This document shows, piece by piece, positions 43,482 to 56,250 of a DNA stretch of 64,000 nt. A model generated the notes under the pieces. That model was given only the letters and a program-made list of their open reading frames with translations. It searched no databases and was not told the origin of the DNA. A program made the translations under genes and the position numbers. The stretch comes from an uncultured Eggerthellaceae bacterium (GTDB lineage Bacteria > Actinomycetota > Coriobacteriia > Coriobacteriales > Eggerthellaceae): assembly GCA_947626195.1 (NCBI GenBank), contig CANQRF010000001.1, positions 62,001 through 126,000 on the forward strand. Direction: 5' to 3'. The stretch's first letter is position 1; every line of letters begins with the position of its first letter.

Positions 43482-43721
43482 TCATACCCCATCTTGCCGT
43501 GGTGTGGCAGAGGTTTCGTCAGCCGCGGCCGATTGCAGTTTCGCCTCCTGCGCGGCGAGCTCCTCCTCAAGAAGCGCCATCTGCGCCTGTGCCTTCTTCG
43601 TTCCCCTCATGATGAAGAGCAGATAGACGAGAAGCGCCACCCAGATGAGCGCGTACGCCGCGATGATGTAGGGCGCCGAGGGGATAACGGTGGAATAGAT
43701 TTGCTCGAGAATCGGATTCAT
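43482..43721 (-). CDS. ccmD: CcmD-like small membrane protein
   Basis: This 79-residue protein has one membrane helix (residues 17-39) followed by a helical Ala/Glu/Gln-rich tail, the usual CcmD build. CcmD assists release of haem-loaded CcmE from CcmABC. Sequence identity in this family is low, so the call rests on position: the start overlaps the ccmC stop by 4 bp (ATGA) and GGAGGAG precedes it. Confidence 0.75.
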   Translation of the reverse strand: MNPILEQIYSTVIPSAPYIIAAYALIWVALLVYLLFIMRGTKKAQAQMALLEEELAAQEAKLQSAAADETSATPRQDGV

Positions 43722-44491
43722 TGTCTCTCCTCCAATGTTTGCTTCATCGCCTCGACGCGCTGCGTGAGCCGTATTTGGTTAAAGCGGGCGCGATAGAGCG
43801 CAAACCCGACGCAGAGAAGCCCGACAAGGCAAACGACAAGGCAGATGCCCATGTCGGCGGTCATGCCGCCTTCGCGCAGCACGACGGGATGGATGCTCGA
43901 GGGAATGAGGCGCGTCACCATGAAGCAGATCGGCACGTCGATGAGCGCGATGATGCTGACGACGGCCGAATAGGTTGCGCTGCGCTCAGGCTCGTCGACG
44001 GCATTGCGCAGAATGAAATACGCGATGACGATGAGCATGAGAATGAGATAGGTGGTCAGCCGCGGCTCCCACGTCCACCACACGCCCCATTCGAAGCGCG
44101 TCCACATCTCGCCGGTGATCATCGTGCAGATAACGAAGAGAAGCGCCACCTCCATCGCCACCTGCGAGCACGAATCGAAGCGCTGCTCCTTCGTCATGAG
44201 GAAGCGGATGGCGTAATAGGCGGCGAACGCCAACGCGATGAAGGAGACGATGGCGACGGGCATGTGGAAGTAGAAGATCTTCTGCGAGATGAGCAGCATC
44301 TGCGATACCATCGAGCCGCCGATGAGCTCGACGCCGTCGACGCTCGCACCATAGACGGGCCCCACCCACAGAAACGCCAGCAGAAAGCCGAGCGTTGAGA
44401 GCACGATGCCCACGCCGAGGATGACGGGGGCCATGCGGTCGGGCCACTGACCTGCCTCGGGCAACTTCACCTCCCGCGTTTTTTCCTTCAT
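43718..44491 (-). CDS. ccmC: Haem exporter subunit CcmC
   Basis: This 257-residue protein has six membrane helices. It presents haem to CcmE at the outer face of the membrane. The tryptophan-rich WWD motif WGVWWTWEPRLT is at 135-146, flanked by the two haem-ligand histidines His76 (FYFHMP) and His201 (SSIHPVV). ATG 44491 follows AAAGGAG. A 42-bp gap separates it from ccmB. Confidence 0.93.
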   Translation of the reverse strand: MKEKTREVKLPEAGQWPDRMAPVILGVGIVLSTLGFLLAFLWVGPVYGASVDGVELIGGSMVSQMLLISQKIFYFHMPVAIVSFIALAFAAYYAIRFLMTKEQRFDSCSQVAMEVALLFVICTMITGEMWTRFEWGVWWTWEPRLTTYLILMLIVIAYFILRNAVDEPERSATYSAVVSIIALIDVPICFMVTRLIPSSIHPVVLREGGMTADMGICLVVCLVGLLCVGFALYRARFNQIRLTQRVEAMKQTLEERQ

Positions 44492-44533: not shown

Positions 44534-45247
44534 TTATGCACCCACGACGAAATCATAGAGAACCCACGAAGCAAGAATCATGATCACATCGTACCCCGCT
44601 GCCAACGCGAGCGAGACCATGAACGATTCGGCCATCAAATCTCCACCGACGATGGCCGCCGTCGTCGCCGACACGCACGCATAGAGCAACGGGAACACGA
44701 TCGGCACGAACAGGAGCGCGAGCATCACGTCTTTGCCGCGCGTGTTCACCGTGATGGTGGAAAGGAGCGTGCCGATGCCCGCGATGCCGATCGATCCGAT
44801 GAGAATCGGCACCACCATGAGCCAACCGGTTTCGGCGGGATGGGTGAGCGAGGAGAAGAAAAGCCAGTAGAGCGGGATGGCGATCACCTCCACGATGAGC
44901 AGGAACACGAGGTTCGACGTCGCCTTCGAAAGGAAGATCACGCCGTGGTCGAGCGGTGCGAGCAAAAGGCCCTCCAAGCTCTCCTCTTCCACCTCATGGG
45001 AAAACGAACGGTTCAACCCGAGCAACGACGTGAAGGCGATGAGCGCCCACAGAAGGCCAGCGGACACCTCGAGGAACTCTTCGCCCGGACGTGCGAAGCT
45101 CAATGCCACGCCGAACACGACGATGACGAGCAGCGCGTAGACGCCCATGGAGATGAGCATCTCCTTCGTGCGGAACTCCTGGCGCAGATCCTTCGCGAGC
45201 AACGTCTTGTACTGCGCGAAGCCGGAGGGGCGTTTCGGCGTTTCCAT
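44534..45247 (-). CDS. ccmB: Haem exporter permease CcmB
   Basis: This 237-residue ABC-2-like permease has six membrane helices. With CcmA it forms the ATPase complex that frees holo-CcmE. The N-terminal RQEFRTKEMLISMGVYALL and the SHEVEEESLEGLLLAP loop are typical of CcmB. ATG 45247 is embedded in the ccmA stop (TGATG), implying coupled translation. Confidence 0.9.
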   Translation of the reverse strand: METPKRPSGFAQYKTLLAKDLRQEFRTKEMLISMGVYALLVIVVFGVALSFARPGEEFLEVSAGLLWALIAFTSLLGLNRSFSHEVEEESLEGLLLAPLDHGVIFLSKATSNLVFLLIVEVIAIPLYWLFFSSLTHPAETGWLMVVPILIGSIGIAGIGTLLSTITVNTRGKDVMLALLFVPIVFPLLYACVSATTAAIVGGDLMAESFMVSLALAAGYDVIMILASWVLYDFVVGA

Positions 45248-45987
45248 CACGCCACCCCCATGCCGACCGTCGAACGGTACAGTTCGCGGAACTCCTGAGC
45301 ATCCAAATTCTCCACCGGCGAGAAGCTGACCACCCTCCCCCGTGCGAGCACGAGGGCATGGGTGCAGAGCGCAAGCCCCTTTTCCAGATCGTGGCTCACC
45401 ATCACGAACGTGCGATCCGCCCGCACGCTCTCGATCAGCTCGTCAACGATCTCCACCGCATGGGGGTCAAGCCCCGAATAAGGCTCGTCGAGCAAGACGA
45501 TGCGCGGATCGTTCACCAGTGCTCGCGCGATGGCGGCGCGCTGCCTCATCCCCCGTGAGAACGTGCGCACACGGTCGTGGCGGCGCGTACGCAAACCGAC
45601 GACGTCCAACAGCTCTGCCGCGCGCTTTTCCGGCTGCGGCACGCCATAGAGCTTGCCATACAACACGAGGTTTTCCTCCGCCGTGAGGTCGGGATAGAGA
45701 AACGAATTGTGCGAGATGATGCCGATGAGCTCGCGCACCTCGTCGGGCTTTTCCTTCGCATCCACACCGAGCACCTCGATCGTGCCGGACGTGGGGCGCG
45801 CGAGTGTCGCGAGCATACGCAGCAGTGTGGTCTTCCCCGCGCCGTTCGGCCCAAACACCGAGAGAAACGCCCCTTGCGGAAGCGTGAATGAGATGCCGTC
45901 GGCTGCCTTGCGCGTACCGAACTTCTTCACGAGATCGGCCACCGCAAGGGCGGGCGTATCAGGGCTAATCGCCGACTGGCTGCTCAT
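45247..45987 (-). CDS. ccmA: Haem exporter ATP-binding protein CcmA
   Basis: This 246-residue ABC ATPase has Walker A FGPNGAGKTTLLR, the signature FSRGMRQRAAIARAL (a variant of LSGGQ) and Walker B RIVLLDEPYSGLD. Start ATG 45987 overlaps the ccmF stop by 4 bp. Context with ccmB/C/F fixes the role. Confidence 0.92.
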   Translation of the reverse strand: MSSQSAISPDTPALAVADLVKKFGTRKAADGISFTLPQGAFLSVFGPNGAGKTTLLRMLATLARPTSGTIEVLGVDAKEKPDEVRELIGIISHNSFLYPDLTAEENLVLYGKLYGVPQPEKRAAELLDVVGLRTRRHDRVRTFSRGMRQRAAIARALVNDPRIVLLDEPYSGLDPHAVEIVDELIESVRADRTFVMVSHDLEKGLALCTHALVLARGRVVSFSPVENLDAQEFRELYRSTVGMGVA

Positions 45988-48095: not shown

Positions 48096-48764
48096 CTAGC
48101 CTTCGAGCGCAACATCGGTCGCCGTGAAGCGCCCGTCGCCGCCGATCGAACCGGTGAGAACAACTGTGGCGCCTTCTACGGCTTCGTCGGAGAGAGCGCC
48201 CTCATAGACGATCGCAAGCTCGTCGCCGCTTTCGCCATCGACGATCACCATGCGCTCACCCTGGCCTGCTGGTGCCAAGGTTCCCGCCTTGATGGCACCC
48301 GCGACCTTGACCGGCTTGTCAAGCACGCTGTCGCCATAGCCGAGAAGCTGGCTTATCGTGAGCGCCTCCTCAGCGTTCTCGTATTTGGAAGGACACTTCG
48401 TCACAAGCTCGCTCGCGCTCAACGTGCCGTCATCGCCGATGCGTCCCGTGCAGATGGCGGTGACGTCGTTGCCAAACGTGGAAGATGCCGCGCCGTCATA
48501 GCGCACGACCAGCTGATCGGTTTCGCCCGCATCGGGATCGTAGATGCTGAATGTGAGCACATCGTCGACGGTCGAGAACGAGCCCGGCACCACGTTGCCC
48601 GACACCTGCACCTTCTGCCCCGCGAACGACGAGTTGCCGACCACATCGCCGACCTTCACCGTCTGCGCTGCGGTATTGCCGCCGACAAATGCCAGCACGA
48701 GAATCAAAACGACGACGATGATGCCGGAGACGACGATCATCCTCTTCTTAAGCTTTGCGTTCAT
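48096..48764 (-). CDS. ccmE: Haem chaperone CcmE, CxxxY type with duplicated OB domain
   Basis: The protein has 222 residues starting at ATG 48764 (GGAGGGG site). A short cytoplasmic tail and a membrane anchor (about 9-28) lead to a CcmE OB fold. Where most CcmE have HxxxY, this one has CPSKY with Cys124 and Tyr128, the variant known from some archaea and sulphate reducers. A second OB-like unit (about 145-222: PVKVAGAIKAG, VVLTGSIGGDGRFTATDV) follows and lacks the haem residue, so it looks like an internal duplication. It is the first gene of the ccmEFABCD operon. Confidence 0.88.
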   Translation of the reverse strand: MNAKLKKRMIVVSGIIVVVLILVLAFVGGNTAAQTVKVGDVVGNSSFAGQKVQVSGNVVPGSFSTVDDVLTFSIYDPDAGETDQLVVRYDGAASSTFGNDVTAICTGRIGDDGTLSASELVTKCPSKYENAEEALTISQLLGYGDSVLDKPVKVAGAIKAGTLAPAGQGERMVIVDGESGDELAIVYEGALSDEAVEGATVVLTGSIGGDGRFTATDVALEG

Positions 48765-50755: not shown

Positions 50756-52405
50756 CTACGCGAGATCTTTACCCAACAAATACCCGTAGGTGATGCAGCG
50801 CCCGTGGCTGTTACCCGCGACGTTGATCGGGTAGTCGACGGCGGTGATGTCGCCCATGCAGTTGCCGAGCGCATAGAGGCCCTCGATCGGCTCGCCATCG
50901 GCGTTCAGGCATTGGAAGTCGGTGTTGACCTTCAGGCCGCCGGTCACGGTGAGCAGCGCCGGTCCGACGGAGAGCGCGTAGAACGGACCTTCCTTGACTG
51001 GCGTCAGGAAGACGGGCTTCTTGTAGTAGTCGGTGTCTTCGCCGGCCTCGCACATGCCGTTGTAGCGCTCAACGGTCGCCTTCAGCGTCGCCGCATCGCA
51101 GCCGATTTGCTTCGCGAGGTCGTCCAGCGTGTCGGCCTGATACGCGATGCCCTGCTCCACATAAAGCGGAATCTGCGTCTGGAAGTAGTCGACCGCCTCC
51201 TGCAAGTCGGATCCGTAGGCGCGGAAGCTGTCCCAGAACATGCCGCCGCCATAGGGCAGGCCGTTCTTGAGGTCGGTCGGCCAGTTGGCGTCGAAGATGG
51301 AATAGGCGATGCCGTCGGGCTGGCGGTTGATCGCGAGCGACTTGCCCTGCACCCACGTATCCTCGCACATGAAGCGCTCGCCGTTCAGGTTCACGAACAG
51401 GAATGGGCCATGGAACCAGCAGAACGCCTGCGGATGCATCATCGTCGGCAGCGGCAGGTCTTGCAGCTGAGCGCCGACCCACATGCCCATCTTATGGCCG
51501 TCGCCGGTGTTCACGCCGACGGGGGTGTACTGGCTGCGCGGCTGGCCGTATTCCACGCAGATCGGCGCATACGCCTCGCACATCTCGACATTGCCGCCGA
51601 TGTCGCCAGCTGCGAGCACAACGTTCTTCGCGTTGTACTTCACATAGCCGTCAGCGGTCTCGCAGATGGCTCCGGTCACCGCGCCGGAGTCGTCGGTGAC
51701 AAGCTGCACCGCCGGAGAATCGAACACGAACGTGGCGCCCGCGTCCACGGCATCGAGATAGAGAAGCTCGGCACCGATGAAGCCGGTTGACGAGAGGCCC
51801 GCATCCTCGGGGGCCATGCACATGTGATAGCCCGGCTGCTCAGCGTACACATCGTCGTGGCTGTAGAACGCACCGACCATCACGAAGCAGTTCTTCGCCT
51901 CGGCCTTGTCGAGCAGCCAGTTGCTCGCCTCTTCCGAGTTGTTGAAGAACTTGCTGATGAGGTCTTCGTTTGCACGGCTGGCGCACTGGGCGATCCAGTG
52001 CTGCTTGGCGTTCACCTTGTCGACGACGATGTTCTGGGCGTCCATGTAGCGCGATTTGATGGCGCCGAATCCGCCGCCGCGGCCGTTCCAGCTGCTCGTC
52101 TTCTCAACGACGGTCACGTTGCCGCCGCTCTCGGCGAGCGAGCATGCGCAGGCGCATCCCGAAAGACCCGCGCCGATGACGAGTGTGTCGGTGTCGACCT
52201 CGCTCGCGATGTCGGTGATGGGCTCGGGCGGCGTCTCCCACGAATAGCCGCCGGACTGCGCCGGCTCTGCGGTGGACGTGTTGCTGCTTGTCGAGCTCGT
52301 CTGCGCCGGCGAGCAACCGGCAAACGCGCCAAGGGCGGCAACGCTGGCGGCGCCGACGGCAGCACCCTTGAGCAGGTCACGACGAGAAACGGTAAGCTTT
52401 GACAT
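50756..52405 (-). CDS. Tat-exported lipoprotein FAD-dependent reductase
   Basis: The 549-residue protein starts at ATG 52405 after GGAGGAGGG. The Tat signal SRRDLLKG (residues 7-14) and lipobox FAGC (Cys31) predict export and lipid anchoring. A Ser/Thr linker precedes the FAD domain with GAGLSG at 78-83; GDGHKMGMWVGA and a C-terminal TVTGGLKVNTDFQ...NCMGD segment complete the FAD_binding_2 fold. No haem or FMN domain is present, so the electron donor is separate. It is the second of four members in this window and clearly divergent from the one at 3307. The acceptor is unknown. Confidence 0.9.
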   Translation of the reverse strand: MSKLTVSRRDLLKGAAVGAASVAALGAFAGCSPAQTSSTSSNTSTAEPAQSGGYSWETPPEPITDIASEVDTDTLVIGAGLSGCACACSLAESGGNVTVVEKTSSWNGRGGGFGAIKSRYMDAQNIVVDKVNAKQHWIAQCASRANEDLISKFFNNSEEASNWLLDKAEAKNCFVMVGAFYSHDDVYAEQPGYHMCMAPEDAGLSSTGFIGAELLYLDAVDAGATFVFDSPAVQLVTDDSGAVTGAICETADGYVKYNAKNVVLAAGDIGGNVEMCEAYAPICVEYGQPRSQYTPVGVNTGDGHKMGMWVGAQLQDLPLPTMMHPQAFCWFHGPFLFVNLNGERFMCEDTWVQGKSLAINRQPDGIAYSIFDANWPTDLKNGLPYGGGMFWDSFRAYGSDLQEAVDYFQTQIPLYVEQGIAYQADTLDDLAKQIGCDAATLKATVERYNGMCEAGEDTDYYKKPVFLTPVKEGPFYALSVGPALLTVTGGLKVNTDFQCLNADGEPIEGLYALGNCMGDITAVDYPINVAGNSHGRCITYGYLLGKDLA

Positions 52406-52590
52406 AGATTTCCCTCCTCCTTTTGGGAATTGTCTCTGCCCCGCCCCATCCCATATGGTTGCGGGGCAATAAACAGTAAGGTAGCAGTACCGTAACATCG
52501 AGAAAACGGCGCGAGAACCCCTCAAACAGTTACCCCGCAACCCCCCGTTGCGCATGTATGAATGAGCAAATGCGCTCAACCAACACGCTC

Positions 52591-52889: not shown

Positions 52890-54596
52890 TTACTCTTCGT
52901 CTTCCAAGCCGGCGAGGCGGCGTCCCACCAGATAGCCAAAGCAGACGCAACGTCCATGGCTGACGGCGCTGATATGGTGCGGATAGGTGCCGAAGAACAT
53001 CGAGCCGCTCGTGTTGCCCAATGCATAGAGATTCGGGATGACCGCACCGGCGTTGTCGAGGACTTGAGAGTTCTTGTTGATCTTCAAACCGCTGACCGAG
53101 GTCAAGCACGAGCCGCTCTCCTCAATCGCGTAGAACGGAGCCTCGTCGAGAGGAAGCAGAGTTGTCGGGTTCTTACCGAAGTCCTCATCGACGCCCTTTG
53201 CGCAGAGCTCGTTGTAGCGCTCCACCGTCGCCTTGAGATTCTCCTTGTTGACGCCGATCTTATCGGCCAGCTCATCGATGCTGTCTGCCTCGATGAGAAC
53301 ATCTTTGCAGTTCTCGTACATATCCTCGGCAGTCCACGGTATGACGCCCTTCATGATGTCGAACGCCGCAAGCAAATCGCCTGAGAGCAGAAGGTAGTCA
53401 TGGGCGCCAGGCTGATACATCAGGGCGTTGTTCACGAGCTCGAACGACTGGCTCTCATTCACGAAGCGCTTACCGTCCTCGTTCACGCGTGGGAAGGCGA
53501 AGATCGCACCGTTCGCGCGGAAGCCGGCAGTGCATCCGCCTGGGTCGTTCATGAGGATGTGGGGATAGTCATCCTCGGCCGCATTGATCGCCGTGGCCAT
53601 GAGATGCCCGTCACCGGATTCAGTCATGGTCGGGTTGATCCACGCATACACCGCGAGGTCGCGCGGGCGAATCCTCTCCGTCAGGCAATCCCAGTTGTTA
53701 TCGTAGCCGCCGGTCGCCAATACGACACCCTTGGAGGCGTTCACCTTGATATAGCCATCTTCACCCTTCGCGAAAACACCGGTCACAGCGCCACTCTCGT
53801 CGGTGATGAGTTGGCAAGCAGGGGTCTCGAAACGAATCTCCGCACCGTTGAGCTCTGCATTGTCAAGCATCATCTTGACAAAGGAGGAAGTGCCGCCCTG
53901 AACGCGAACACCAGTCGCCCAGGTCTTCACACCCTCATAAACGGAATGGTCGCCCACGACGCTGAACTCGCCGCACTCGCTCGTCGGCGTGTTAGATGAG
54001 GTTTCCATCGCCCATGCCATCGCCTCACCGGAGCGGTCGATGTATTGCTGCCAGACAAAACGGTCGGCGCGATAGTGGGCAAAGGAGAGCGCATCGCCCA
54101 AGAGCTCTGCCGGATCAACCGTCACGCCGGCGGCTGTATGGAGAGGATCGTTGATGGCGCCGATCTCGCTTCCGCGTGCGGCGAACGTCGTGCCCTTCTC
54201 GAGCAGCAAAACGTTCAGACCGTTTTGCGAAGCGGAGGCTGCCGCCGTCGTTCCCGCCATACCGGCACCGCATACCACGACGTCGACGTCGATGGTCTCG
54301 GTAACTTGGTCGTCAGTGATCGGGTCGGCGACGAAATCGGGCTCGCATTGCACCGATTGCGAGAAATTCAGATTCTCCTTGTTGGGCAGAAGCGTTTCGC
54401 CCGTCTGCGCAGAAGCAGACGTCGTGCTGTTGGTCGGCGTGTCCGACGTGTTGCTCGACGTCGAGCTCGGCGACGGCGCGCATCCGGTTGCCGCGAGCGC
54501 CGTGAGCGCTGCAACCGAGGTTGCTACGCCGAGAAATCCACGACGCGACATCGCGCCGTTGGCTCCTTTGATGGCCGTTTTGTTGAGGTCTTCCAT
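52890..54596 (-). CDS. Tat-exported lipoprotein FAD-dependent reductase
   Basis: The 568-residue protein has a Tat motif SRRGFLG (residues 17-23) and lipobox ATGC (Cys39). A long Ser/Thr-rich linker (about 41-65) leads to the FAD loop GAGMAG at 110-115 and the AARGSEIGAIN segment typical of fumarate reductase-like flavoproteins. The C-terminus has SVSGLKIN and VSHGRCVCFGYLVGRRLAG. ATG 54596 follows AGAGGAAGAGAGG. It is divergent from the membrane LuxR gene, so the pair is probably a regulator and its target. The substrate is unknown. Confidence 0.9.
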   Translation of the reverse strand: MEDLNKTAIKGANGAMSRRGFLGVATSVAALTALAATGCAPSPSSTSSNTSDTPTNSTTSASAQTGETLLPNKENLNFSQSVQCEPDFVADPITDDQVTETIDVDVVVCGAGMAGTTAAASASQNGLNVLLLEKGTTFAARGSEIGAINDPLHTAAGVTVDPAELLGDALSFAHYRADRFVWQQYIDRSGEAMAWAMETSSNTPTSECGEFSVVGDHSVYEGVKTWATGVRVQGGTSSFVKMMLDNAELNGAEIRFETPACQLITDESGAVTGVFAKGEDGYIKVNASKGVVLATGGYDNNWDCLTERIRPRDLAVYAWINPTMTESGDGHLMATAINAAEDDYPHILMNDPGGCTAGFRANGAIFAFPRVNEDGKRFVNESQSFELVNNALMYQPGAHDYLLLSGDLLAAFDIMKGVIPWTAEDMYENCKDVLIEADSIDELADKIGVNKENLKATVERYNELCAKGVDEDFGKNPTTLLPLDEAPFYAIEESGSCLTSVSGLKINKNSQVLDNAGAVIPNLYALGNTSGSMFFGTYPHHISAVSHGRCVCFGYLVGRRLAGLEDEE

Positions 54597-54759
54597 GTTC
54601 CCCTCTCTTCCTCTTTCGATGGGTTAACTCAAAAGGGCATCAACCGTGGGTGTATAATGCAGGTTTGCGAAATCGGCATTTCCCCCGTTGATGCCCACAC
54701 GCTTCTGCAGCGCGCAGGAAGACCTTAGCGCAGTCATGGGAGTGGGAGTATCCGACAAT

Positions 54760-56250
54760 ATGGCCAACTTTGCCAAATCTGCCATCGGACAAAAAGTACG
54801 ATGGTTTCCCATCAGGCTTTCTGGAGCCGGCGTCGCCGCCTGCTCCATCGTCGGAATGGCGCTTTTCTACGCATGGAACCTCTATGCTATTTACTACGGC
54901 CCCCTCGTCTCGACGCAAGGCTATATGTCAACGACCCTTGGAACCATCGTCACCAGCATTTCGGCAACGCTCGGGTTCGTGGTGATAGGAGCTTGGCTCT
55001 ATCGGCTGCGGCATTTCGAGATCATTGGCATGGCGATTTCTGCGGCAACCGTCGTGTTCGTTCCACTTGCCGTCGTGCTCCGCGATAGCGGCATGCTCAA
55101 TCCCACCGCCGCACAGCTGCTCATCGATGTGGTCAGCAGAATCTGCTCGTGCTGGGTGATCGTCTCGTGGGGAGCACAGTATTCTCGGTTCAAGCCGCGC
55201 TTCATCACAATATTCGCGCTCGCCTCGTTCCTTATCGCCTTGGTCGTCTGCTTTTCCTTAAACGCCTGTCCAATTGCCGTGAAAGTCACGTTCGCAAGCA
55301 TCACCCTGCCGCTTTCCATGGTGTTTGCCTTGCTGGTGAAGGGAAGTAAAGGGGAGGCGTTCGCCCCAAATGCCCCAGGGCCGTCAAACGAGACATTTGT
55401 CGGCCTTACTTGGCGGATCATCGTCGTGTTCTTCTTGTTCGGCATCGTCACCTGGGTGGGAATCACACTCGCCCAAACCGATTTCGACAAAACGCGATCG
55501 TTGGCGGATCTTTCCATCGTCGGCAGCGGAACCATCGTAGTCATTTTCTTGCTGATCGCGCTTTTCACGAAGGGAACCTTCTCCACGTCTTTCATCTATC
55601 GCGTGGCGCTTCCGCTCGTTATGACGGGAATGATGCTCGTCACCATACCGAGCGTTGAGACTCCCGTAGGGACGGCGCTCATCGCGATGAGCTACACCTG
55701 CTTCGATCTCTTCTGCTTCACGCTTTTCGCGAACGCCTGCCGCAAAACGGGAACCGACCCGCGAAAAGCCTTTGGCTGGTGCCGCGCCATTGAAAGCAGT
55801 GCGCCTATTCCCGCCATTGCCCTTATCACCATGACGAGCAACCTTTTCCCGCCGGAGAGCCACCTTCTCTCCACGCTTATCGTGGCGGCGAGCGTTTTGG
55901 TGGCAGCTGCCCTGATGCTGTTCAGTAGCACCAAGATTTTCGAGAAGGTGCAAAGCCCGCAGACCGAAGAGAAGGGACTGGGGTTTACCGAGGATATGAT
56001 GCAATTCGCGTTGCAGTTTTCAAAAGCCGTCCAGAGCGCGGCGCTCTCGCCCCGCGAGGCGGAGATCCTCAGCCTGATCGTCCGCGGCAGAAGCGTGCCT
56101 TATATAGCCGAGAAGCTCGCCATCTCACGGAGCACGGTGAAGACGCATATCGCCCACATTTACGAGAAGCTCGACGTTGCCGATCGCCAGGAGATGATCG
56201 ACGCCATCGAGGCGATTCCGCTTGATGAAGGCAATGAGATAGCAAGTTGA
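54760..56250 (+). CDS. Membrane-embedded LuxR-type transcriptional regulator
   Basis: The protein has about 496 residues. The N-terminal 390 residues form ten to twelve hydrophobic helices with no recognised enzyme motif. The last 70 residues are a LuxR/GerE helix-turn-helix: LSPREAEILSLIVRGR, IAEKLAISRSTVKTHI and HIYEKLDVADRQEM. This build, a transporter-like membrane sensor fused to a DNA-binding domain, is frequent in Eggerthellaceae next to Tat flavoproteins. The start is uncertain: ATG 54760 (GGGAG 11 nt upstream), ATG 54736 or ATG 54691. It probably senses the substrate of the divergent flavoprotein. Confidence 0.88.
   Translation: MANFAKSAIGQKVRWFPIRLSGAGVAACSIVGMALFYAWNLYAIYYGPLVSTQGYMSTTLGTIVTSISATLGFVVIGAWLYRLRHFEIIGMAISAATVVFVPLAVVLRDSGMLNPTAAQLLIDVVSRICSCWVIVSWGAQYSRFKPRFITIFALASFLIALVVCFSLNACPIAVKVTFASITLPLSMVFALLVKGSKGEAFAPNAPGPSNETFVGLTWRIIVVFFLFGIVTWVGITLAQTDFDKTRSLADLSIVGSGTIVVIFLLIALFTKGTFSTSFIYRVALPLVMTGMMLVTIPSVETPVGTALIAMSYTCFDLFCFTLFANACRKTGTDPRKAFGWCRAIESSAPIPAIALITMTSNLFPPESHLLSTLIVAASVLVAAALMLFSSTKIFEKVQSPQTEEKGLGFTEDMMQFALQFSKAVQSAALSPREAEILSLIVRGRSVPYIAEKLAISRSTVKTHIAHIYEKLDVADRQEMIDAIEAIPLDEGNEIAS

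Follow-up and report, generated by a model that had tools for sequence, protein, structure and literature searches.

A tandem-OB CcmE with a single CPSKY haem motif in an Eggerthellaceae bacterium and its relatives in Coriobacteriia

The analysed window, a stretch of 64,000 nucleotides from an uncultured Eggerthellaceae bacterium (GCA_947626195.1, contig CANQRF010000001.1, positions 62,001 to 126,000), contained a ccm operon in the order ccmE-ccmF-ccmA-ccmB-ccmC-ccmD, with ccmE first and the whole set on the minus strand (Table 1). A ribosome-binding site (GGAGGGG) was present immediately 5' of the ATG of ccmE, the gene under study, at 48764, and the plus strand over 48096-48764 carried an unrelated reading frame. 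The ccmD-like protein contained a single hydrophobic stretch, and a homologue of its gene was found at the same position in all 14 Eggerthellaceae-type loci checked. The replacement of WxWD by WxWE in CcmC was seen in 42 of 62 Eggerthellaceae-type loci, and also beside single-domain CcmE in three loci (L227, L228 and L230). Genes near the operon encoded a LuxR-type regulator whose N-terminal part is long and hydrophobic, and two FAD-binding reductase-like proteins, one of which matched a twin-arginine signal slightly below the cut-off.

Table 1. Features of the ccm operon, of the tandem-OB CcmE and of nearby genes (positions in the window)
Feature	Position	Strand	Evidence
ccmE, tandem-OB haem chaperone, 222 aa	48096-48764	-	PF03100 twice in one ORF; translation
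Membrane helix at the N terminus, residues 3-28	48681-48758	-	AlphaFold2 helix 3-28; hydrophobic sequence
D1, first OB barrel, residues ~34-123	48396-48665	-	PF03100 stretch 37-130; AlphaFold2 strands 51-123
CPSKY haem-attachment motif, residues 124-128 (Cys124, Tyr128)	48381-48395	-	Class alignment
D2, second OB barrel without haem tail, residues ~135-221	48102-48362	-	PF03100, AlphaFold2, Foldseek, HHalign
Arg171, invariant, D2-specific	48252-48254	-	28-sequence class alignment and 73 Eggerthellaceae-type sequences
ccmF, haem lyase, 701 aa	45984-48089	-	PF01578 and PF16327; TIGR00353 E = 2.9e-91
ccmA, ABC transporter ATPase	45247-45987	-	PF00005; TIGR01189 E = 3.1e-36, slightly under cut-off; operon position
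ccmB	44534-45250	-	PF03379 E = 5e-28
ccmC, WxWE replacing WxWD	43718-44491	-	PF01578 E = 3.1e-23; TIGR01191 E = 7.4e-27, under cut-off
ccmD-like small membrane protein, 79 aa	43482-43721	-	PF04995 sub-threshold, E = 0.03; overlaps ccmC stop
FAD-binding reductase-like protein	50756-52579	-	
FAD-binding reductase-like protein	52890-54596	-	
LuxR-type regulator	54688-56250	+	

The whole CcmE gave two matches to the Pfam CcmE family (PF03100) within the single ORF (E = 2.7e-28), and its score of 98.7 bits against a cut-off of 24.6 placed it in the family, whereas the best score against the NCBIfam CcmE equivalogs (PRK13254 and others) was 58.6 bits, below the curated cut-off of 126. The N-terminal membrane helix and OB barrel of the family were recognised by AlphaFold2 and Foldseek, and the gene lies in a ccm operon beside ccmA, ccmB, ccmC and ccmF. 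The first domain (D1) closes with the haem motif TKCPSKY. As the first-pass annotation had proposed, the translation placed CPSKY at residues 124-128, with Cys124 in the position of the usual His. Because a second OB domain (D2) comes after this haem tail, the protein was filed as a variant; the layout of one OB domain with a C-terminal haem tail is the usual CcmE architecture and no condition for membership of the Pfam family. AlphaFold2 modelled the whole protein as two OB barrels (mean pLDDT 83.8), and their mutual placement is not fixed, since the pTM was only 0.47. The spacing from CPSKY to the first helix of D2 was just ~8 residues. All five CPSKY residues were 96-100% conserved in a class alignment of 28 sequences and invariant in 73 Eggerthellaceae-type sequences. 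Taken as an architecture of two barrels with a single haem site, this description of the protein is almost certainly correct.

The replacement of His by Cys, with Tyr four residues further, assigned the protein to the CxxxY subgroup of CcmE, which has been described in archaea and Desulfovibrio together with a System I lacking CcmH (PMC9084895, PMC3884852). The operon conformed to that association, which had been pointed out beforehand: CcmH was absent from the own genome, and none of 199 sampled Coriobacteriia genomes had a CcmH over the family cut-off. The Desulfovibrio (D. vulgaris, 2KCT; D. desulfuricans) and archaeal (for example Methanosarcina acetivorans) CxxxY proteins share the OB fold, the Cys/Tyr motif and the lack of CcmH with the present one, and 2KCT, the D. 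vulgaris CcmE, was the best PDB match of the tandem-family profile. They differ in that those described have one domain only, whereas the present protein continues behind the haem tail with a second OB domain, and in that the archaea lack ccmD (PMC9084895), of which a likely counterpart is present here. The classical HxxxY CcmE of E. coli (8CE8 chain E, 1SR3) also has the membrane helix and the CcmE-type OB fold, which both D1 and D2 resemble, but it carries His instead of Cys, has one barrel and works with CcmH.

The relationship of D2 to the CcmE family was recognised by several methods. D2 alone (residues 132-222) matched PF03100 with E = 3.7e-10 and 40.5 bits. The match spans positions 5-89 of the 99-position profile and lacks its end, which holds the haem motif; the D2 of all 73 relatives matched the same family. 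When the profiles of the two halves were aligned by HHalign, the probability was 99.1 with E = 1.4e-18 and 25% identity, in agreement with the repeat suggested by the first reading. AlphaFold2 folded D2 by itself into a confident OB fold (pLDDT 91.6, pTM 0.81), contrary to the outcome that would have spoken against a second OB domain; the top PDB match of this model in Foldseek was the E. coli CcmE (8ce8_E, E = 3e-5, TM 0.74), and a D2-only sequence profile retrieved solved CcmE structures, with 2KCT from Desulfovibrio as the first. The repeat expected at about residues 145-222 was thus confirmed as an OB domain, although it starts near residue 135 and the earlier boundary was slightly late. 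Its description as a domain without a haem residue also held, as no conserved Cys, His or Tyr was found in D2 across the class alignment. A second haem station, at which D2 would bind haem or another ligand non-covalently, is consistent with the retained CcmE fold, and the lack of both a haem tail and any conserved Cys, His or Tyr makes it highly improbable. In contrast, Arg171 of D2 was 100% conserved both in the 28-sequence class-wide alignment and in the 73 Eggerthellaceae-type sequences, and has no counterpart in D1.

The distribution of the tandem form was surveyed within Actinobacteriota. CcmE was present in 170 of 298 sampled Coriobacteriia genomes (85 of 125 genera), and PF03100 matched it twice in nearly all of the 170; among the matches listed, the two-domain profile likewise gave a full-length match in nearly all CcmE genomes. 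Five genomes of the class had a single match (G091, G103, G131, G133 and G149): G103 and G131 proved tandem once inspected, G091 and G149 had partial CcmE matches, and the only match found in G133 was an insert in CcmF. The 80 named loci belonged to Eggerthellaceae or allied organisms, Eggerthella, Adlercreutzia, Gordonibacter, Slackia and Raoultibacter among them, with an uncultured Eggerthellaceae bacterium as the nearest (96%). In the rest of the phylum, CcmE was found in 145 sampled genomes and the proteins read were single-domain; 11 of the 145 had two matches, and those located (all but G370) were separate loci or separate neighbouring genes. A plasmid search returned only two matches, from Bacillaceae, of which the one read was a single-domain CcmE. 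As nearly all CcmE of the class were tandem and those read elsewhere in the phylum were single-domain, the tandem looks like a class trait, a Coriobacteriia-wide form not limited to the source genome. The duplication and the Cys, for which a survey of the class had been proposed, were both general features. The suggestion that a tandem form may be undescribed also stood: no description of a tandem-OB CcmE, or of a CcmF with an OB insert, was found in the open-access literature, an absence that is weak evidence because the search covered open-licence papers only. The best reading is that the tandem CcmE represents a new class-wide form of CxxxY CcmE.

In a tree of OB domains, the D1 domains of the class formed one clade (98/99), and D2 also formed one clade save for a mislabelled class member; the sequences are short. 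The row concerned (L080_S12), labelled as single, was no single-domain protein; it was the D2 domain from a member of the class. With D1 and D2 each in one clade, a single origin and long retention of D2 are probable, and the tandem probably arose once. Internal duplication of D1, corresponding to D2 as sister to D1, is one possible origin (AU p = 0.236). Origin by fusion of adjacent ccmE paralogues was considered as another and was rejected, as the paired genes of other clades did not cluster with D2. Such adjacent pairs were seen in other Actinobacteriota (L061 to L065), where the other copy carried CPENY, CPDNY or CPDKL. They resemble the present gene in having two CcmE domains per locus, and differ in that the two domains come from separate genes, whose products each have their own membrane helix; in three of the five loci both copies carry CPxxY. 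Since they lay apart from D2 in the tree, they most likely reflect an independent duplication.

The closest relatives of D1 found outside the class (E ~1e-26 to 1e-28) were single-domain CPSKY proteins of other Actinobacteriota (L045 and L050, for example), which are likewise encoded in a ccmEFABCD operon that has no CcmH. These proteins lack D2, and their ORFs are ~130-157 aa. This comparison bears on the possibility that D2 is a substitute for CcmH, gained to hold the apocytochrome at CcmF, as could be supposed from the sampled Coriobacteriia, which lack CcmH and carry D2 wherever they have CcmE. Eight sampled genomes of Actinobacteriota outside the class also lacked CcmH, had a single-domain CPSKY CcmE and showed the same gene order where the operon was examined; moreover, CXXC is absent from D2. 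Because the single-domain CPSKY CcmE sits in the same CcmH-less operon, no gene is missing in comparison with those Actinobacteriota for which D2 would stand in, and the loss of CcmH needs no gain of D2. Replacement of CcmH was accordingly rejected as the main idea and is regarded as quite improbable. The same comparison implies that D2 is presumably dispensable in principle, as the single-domain form would work in that operon elsewhere in the phylum.

The association of motif type with CcmH was also noted in the other Actinobacteriota. C-type CcmE occurred in genomes with CcmH at ten loci (L039, L041, L048, L052, L053, L059, L061, L065, L069 and L070), with CxxxY or, in four of them, CxxxF; these loci run counter to the rule that CxxxY accompanies the loss of CcmH. 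All 17 genomes checked with H-type CcmE had CcmH.

The search with the tandem profile detected an extra D2-like match inside CcmF in two genomes of another Coriobacteriia family, G109 and G133 of f19. The insert was an in-frame OB domain of ~88 residues in the CcmF loop that joins the WTPGG segment to the GPTFSPATFD.LARP segment (L171:1558-3948 in G109; L172:2031-4199, minus strand, in G133). In both genomes it scored higher with the D2 profile than with the D1 profile, and the nearest sequence to the G109 insert was the D2 of CcmE from the same genome (37%, 4e-19). The insert lacked an equivalent of Arg171. The search gave no match of this kind in the remaining genomes of the family, and where the loop was read in other CcmF of the class, the insert was missing. 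The loop bearing the insert would face outward, judging from the alternation of the helices and the outward position of the WWD domain. CcmF of the class also bears small class-specific insertions, which on the same reading of the topology would lie mostly in outward-facing loops. A domain found in the CcmE of most class members and also inside the CcmF of two genomes may act where CcmE and CcmF meet, which suggests that D2 works at the site of haem handover from CcmE to CcmF.

A role of D2 at the loading step instead was also considered, in which it would bind CcmC/CcmD or CcmAB and aid the formation or release of holo-CcmE. According to two reports, loading requires close contact between CcmE and CcmC (PMC6204919; PMC10457321), and most Eggerthellaceae-type loci have the WxWE variant of CcmC. 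The occurrence of WxWE also with single-domain CcmE, together with the sole evidence of domain transfer pointing to CcmF, makes an action at loading unlikely.

D2 was less conserved than D1 both in the class alignment and in dN/dS (median 0.37 for D2 against 0.29 for D1), and its most conserved positions were glycines and likely core residues. Among the closest pairs, which are the better guide because many pairs behind the median are far apart, the dN/dS of D2 was 0.08-0.36, indicating that the domain is under purifying selection. The lower conservation and the nature of the top positions are what a stabiliser, a spacer or a leftover of the duplication without a specific partner would be expected to show, for example a domain that orders the haem tail or sets the distance from the membrane. 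Such a role appears of low probability in view of the almost class-wide retention of D2, the purifying selection, the invariant Arg171 and the homologue within CcmF.

We therefore return to the handover from CcmE to CcmF, for which our leading, if tentative, reading is that D2 serves as a docking or capping domain at haem and CcmF; we put this slightly below an even call. In ordinary CcmE, the haem-carrying tail is the free end. In the tandem protein, haem would be loaded by CcmABCD onto Cys124 and Tyr128 would serve as its axial ligand, in line with proposals for other CcmE; it would be attached at this one site only, on D1. The short linker would hold the haem tail between the two barrels, and D2 should therefore adjoin the haem. 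D2 could then cover or orient the haem on Cys124 and bind the outer face of CcmF, from which the haem would pass to the CcmF active site. Published knowledge on CcmE and CcmF, combined with inference, underlies the CcmABC steps, the part given to Tyr128 and the loop orientation. Whether haem from CcmE enters CcmF from the periplasm or from the outer leaflet is debated, and both routes are on the outward side (PMC10663686). The retention of D2 in nearly all CcmE of the class, the purifying selection, the invariant Arg171, the linker of ~8 residues and the CcmF insert argue for a docking or capping role. The confinement of the insert to two related genomes and its lack of an Arg171 equivalent, the uncertain placement of the barrels (pTM 0.47), the lower conservation of D2 relative to D1 and the single-domain CPSKY CcmE that presumably functions in the same CcmH-less operon elsewhere in the phylum argue against it. 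A more far-reaching version would make the second barrel, throughout the class, a specialised lid for haem and docking domain for CcmF that was later copied into CcmF in one genus; this is rather doubtful. If true, it would define a variant of System I whose haem handover site derives from a duplicated chaperone domain.

The handover of haem from CcmE to CcmF is unsettled, with two competing models of entry, and structures of the synthase with its donor have been called for (PMC10663686). A natural CcmE that has a further domain next to the haem, together with relatives that have a similar domain within CcmF, gives direct access to the docking surface, and the insertion in CcmF is the most useful lead. 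Cgr1, the digoxin-linked cytochrome of Eggerthella lenta, could not be supplied with haem in foreign hosts, for which an incompatibility of maturation factors was put forward as one reason (PMC5953540). As Eggerthella has the tandem system, found here in Eggerthella sinensis (L103), its own ccmEFABCD operon is the obvious set for co-expression with Cgr1. In the genome carrying the present operon, six CXXCH codon patterns were clustered on one strand (G000:C1:195299-195733), and this cluster likely encodes a multihaem cytochrome served by the ccm system.
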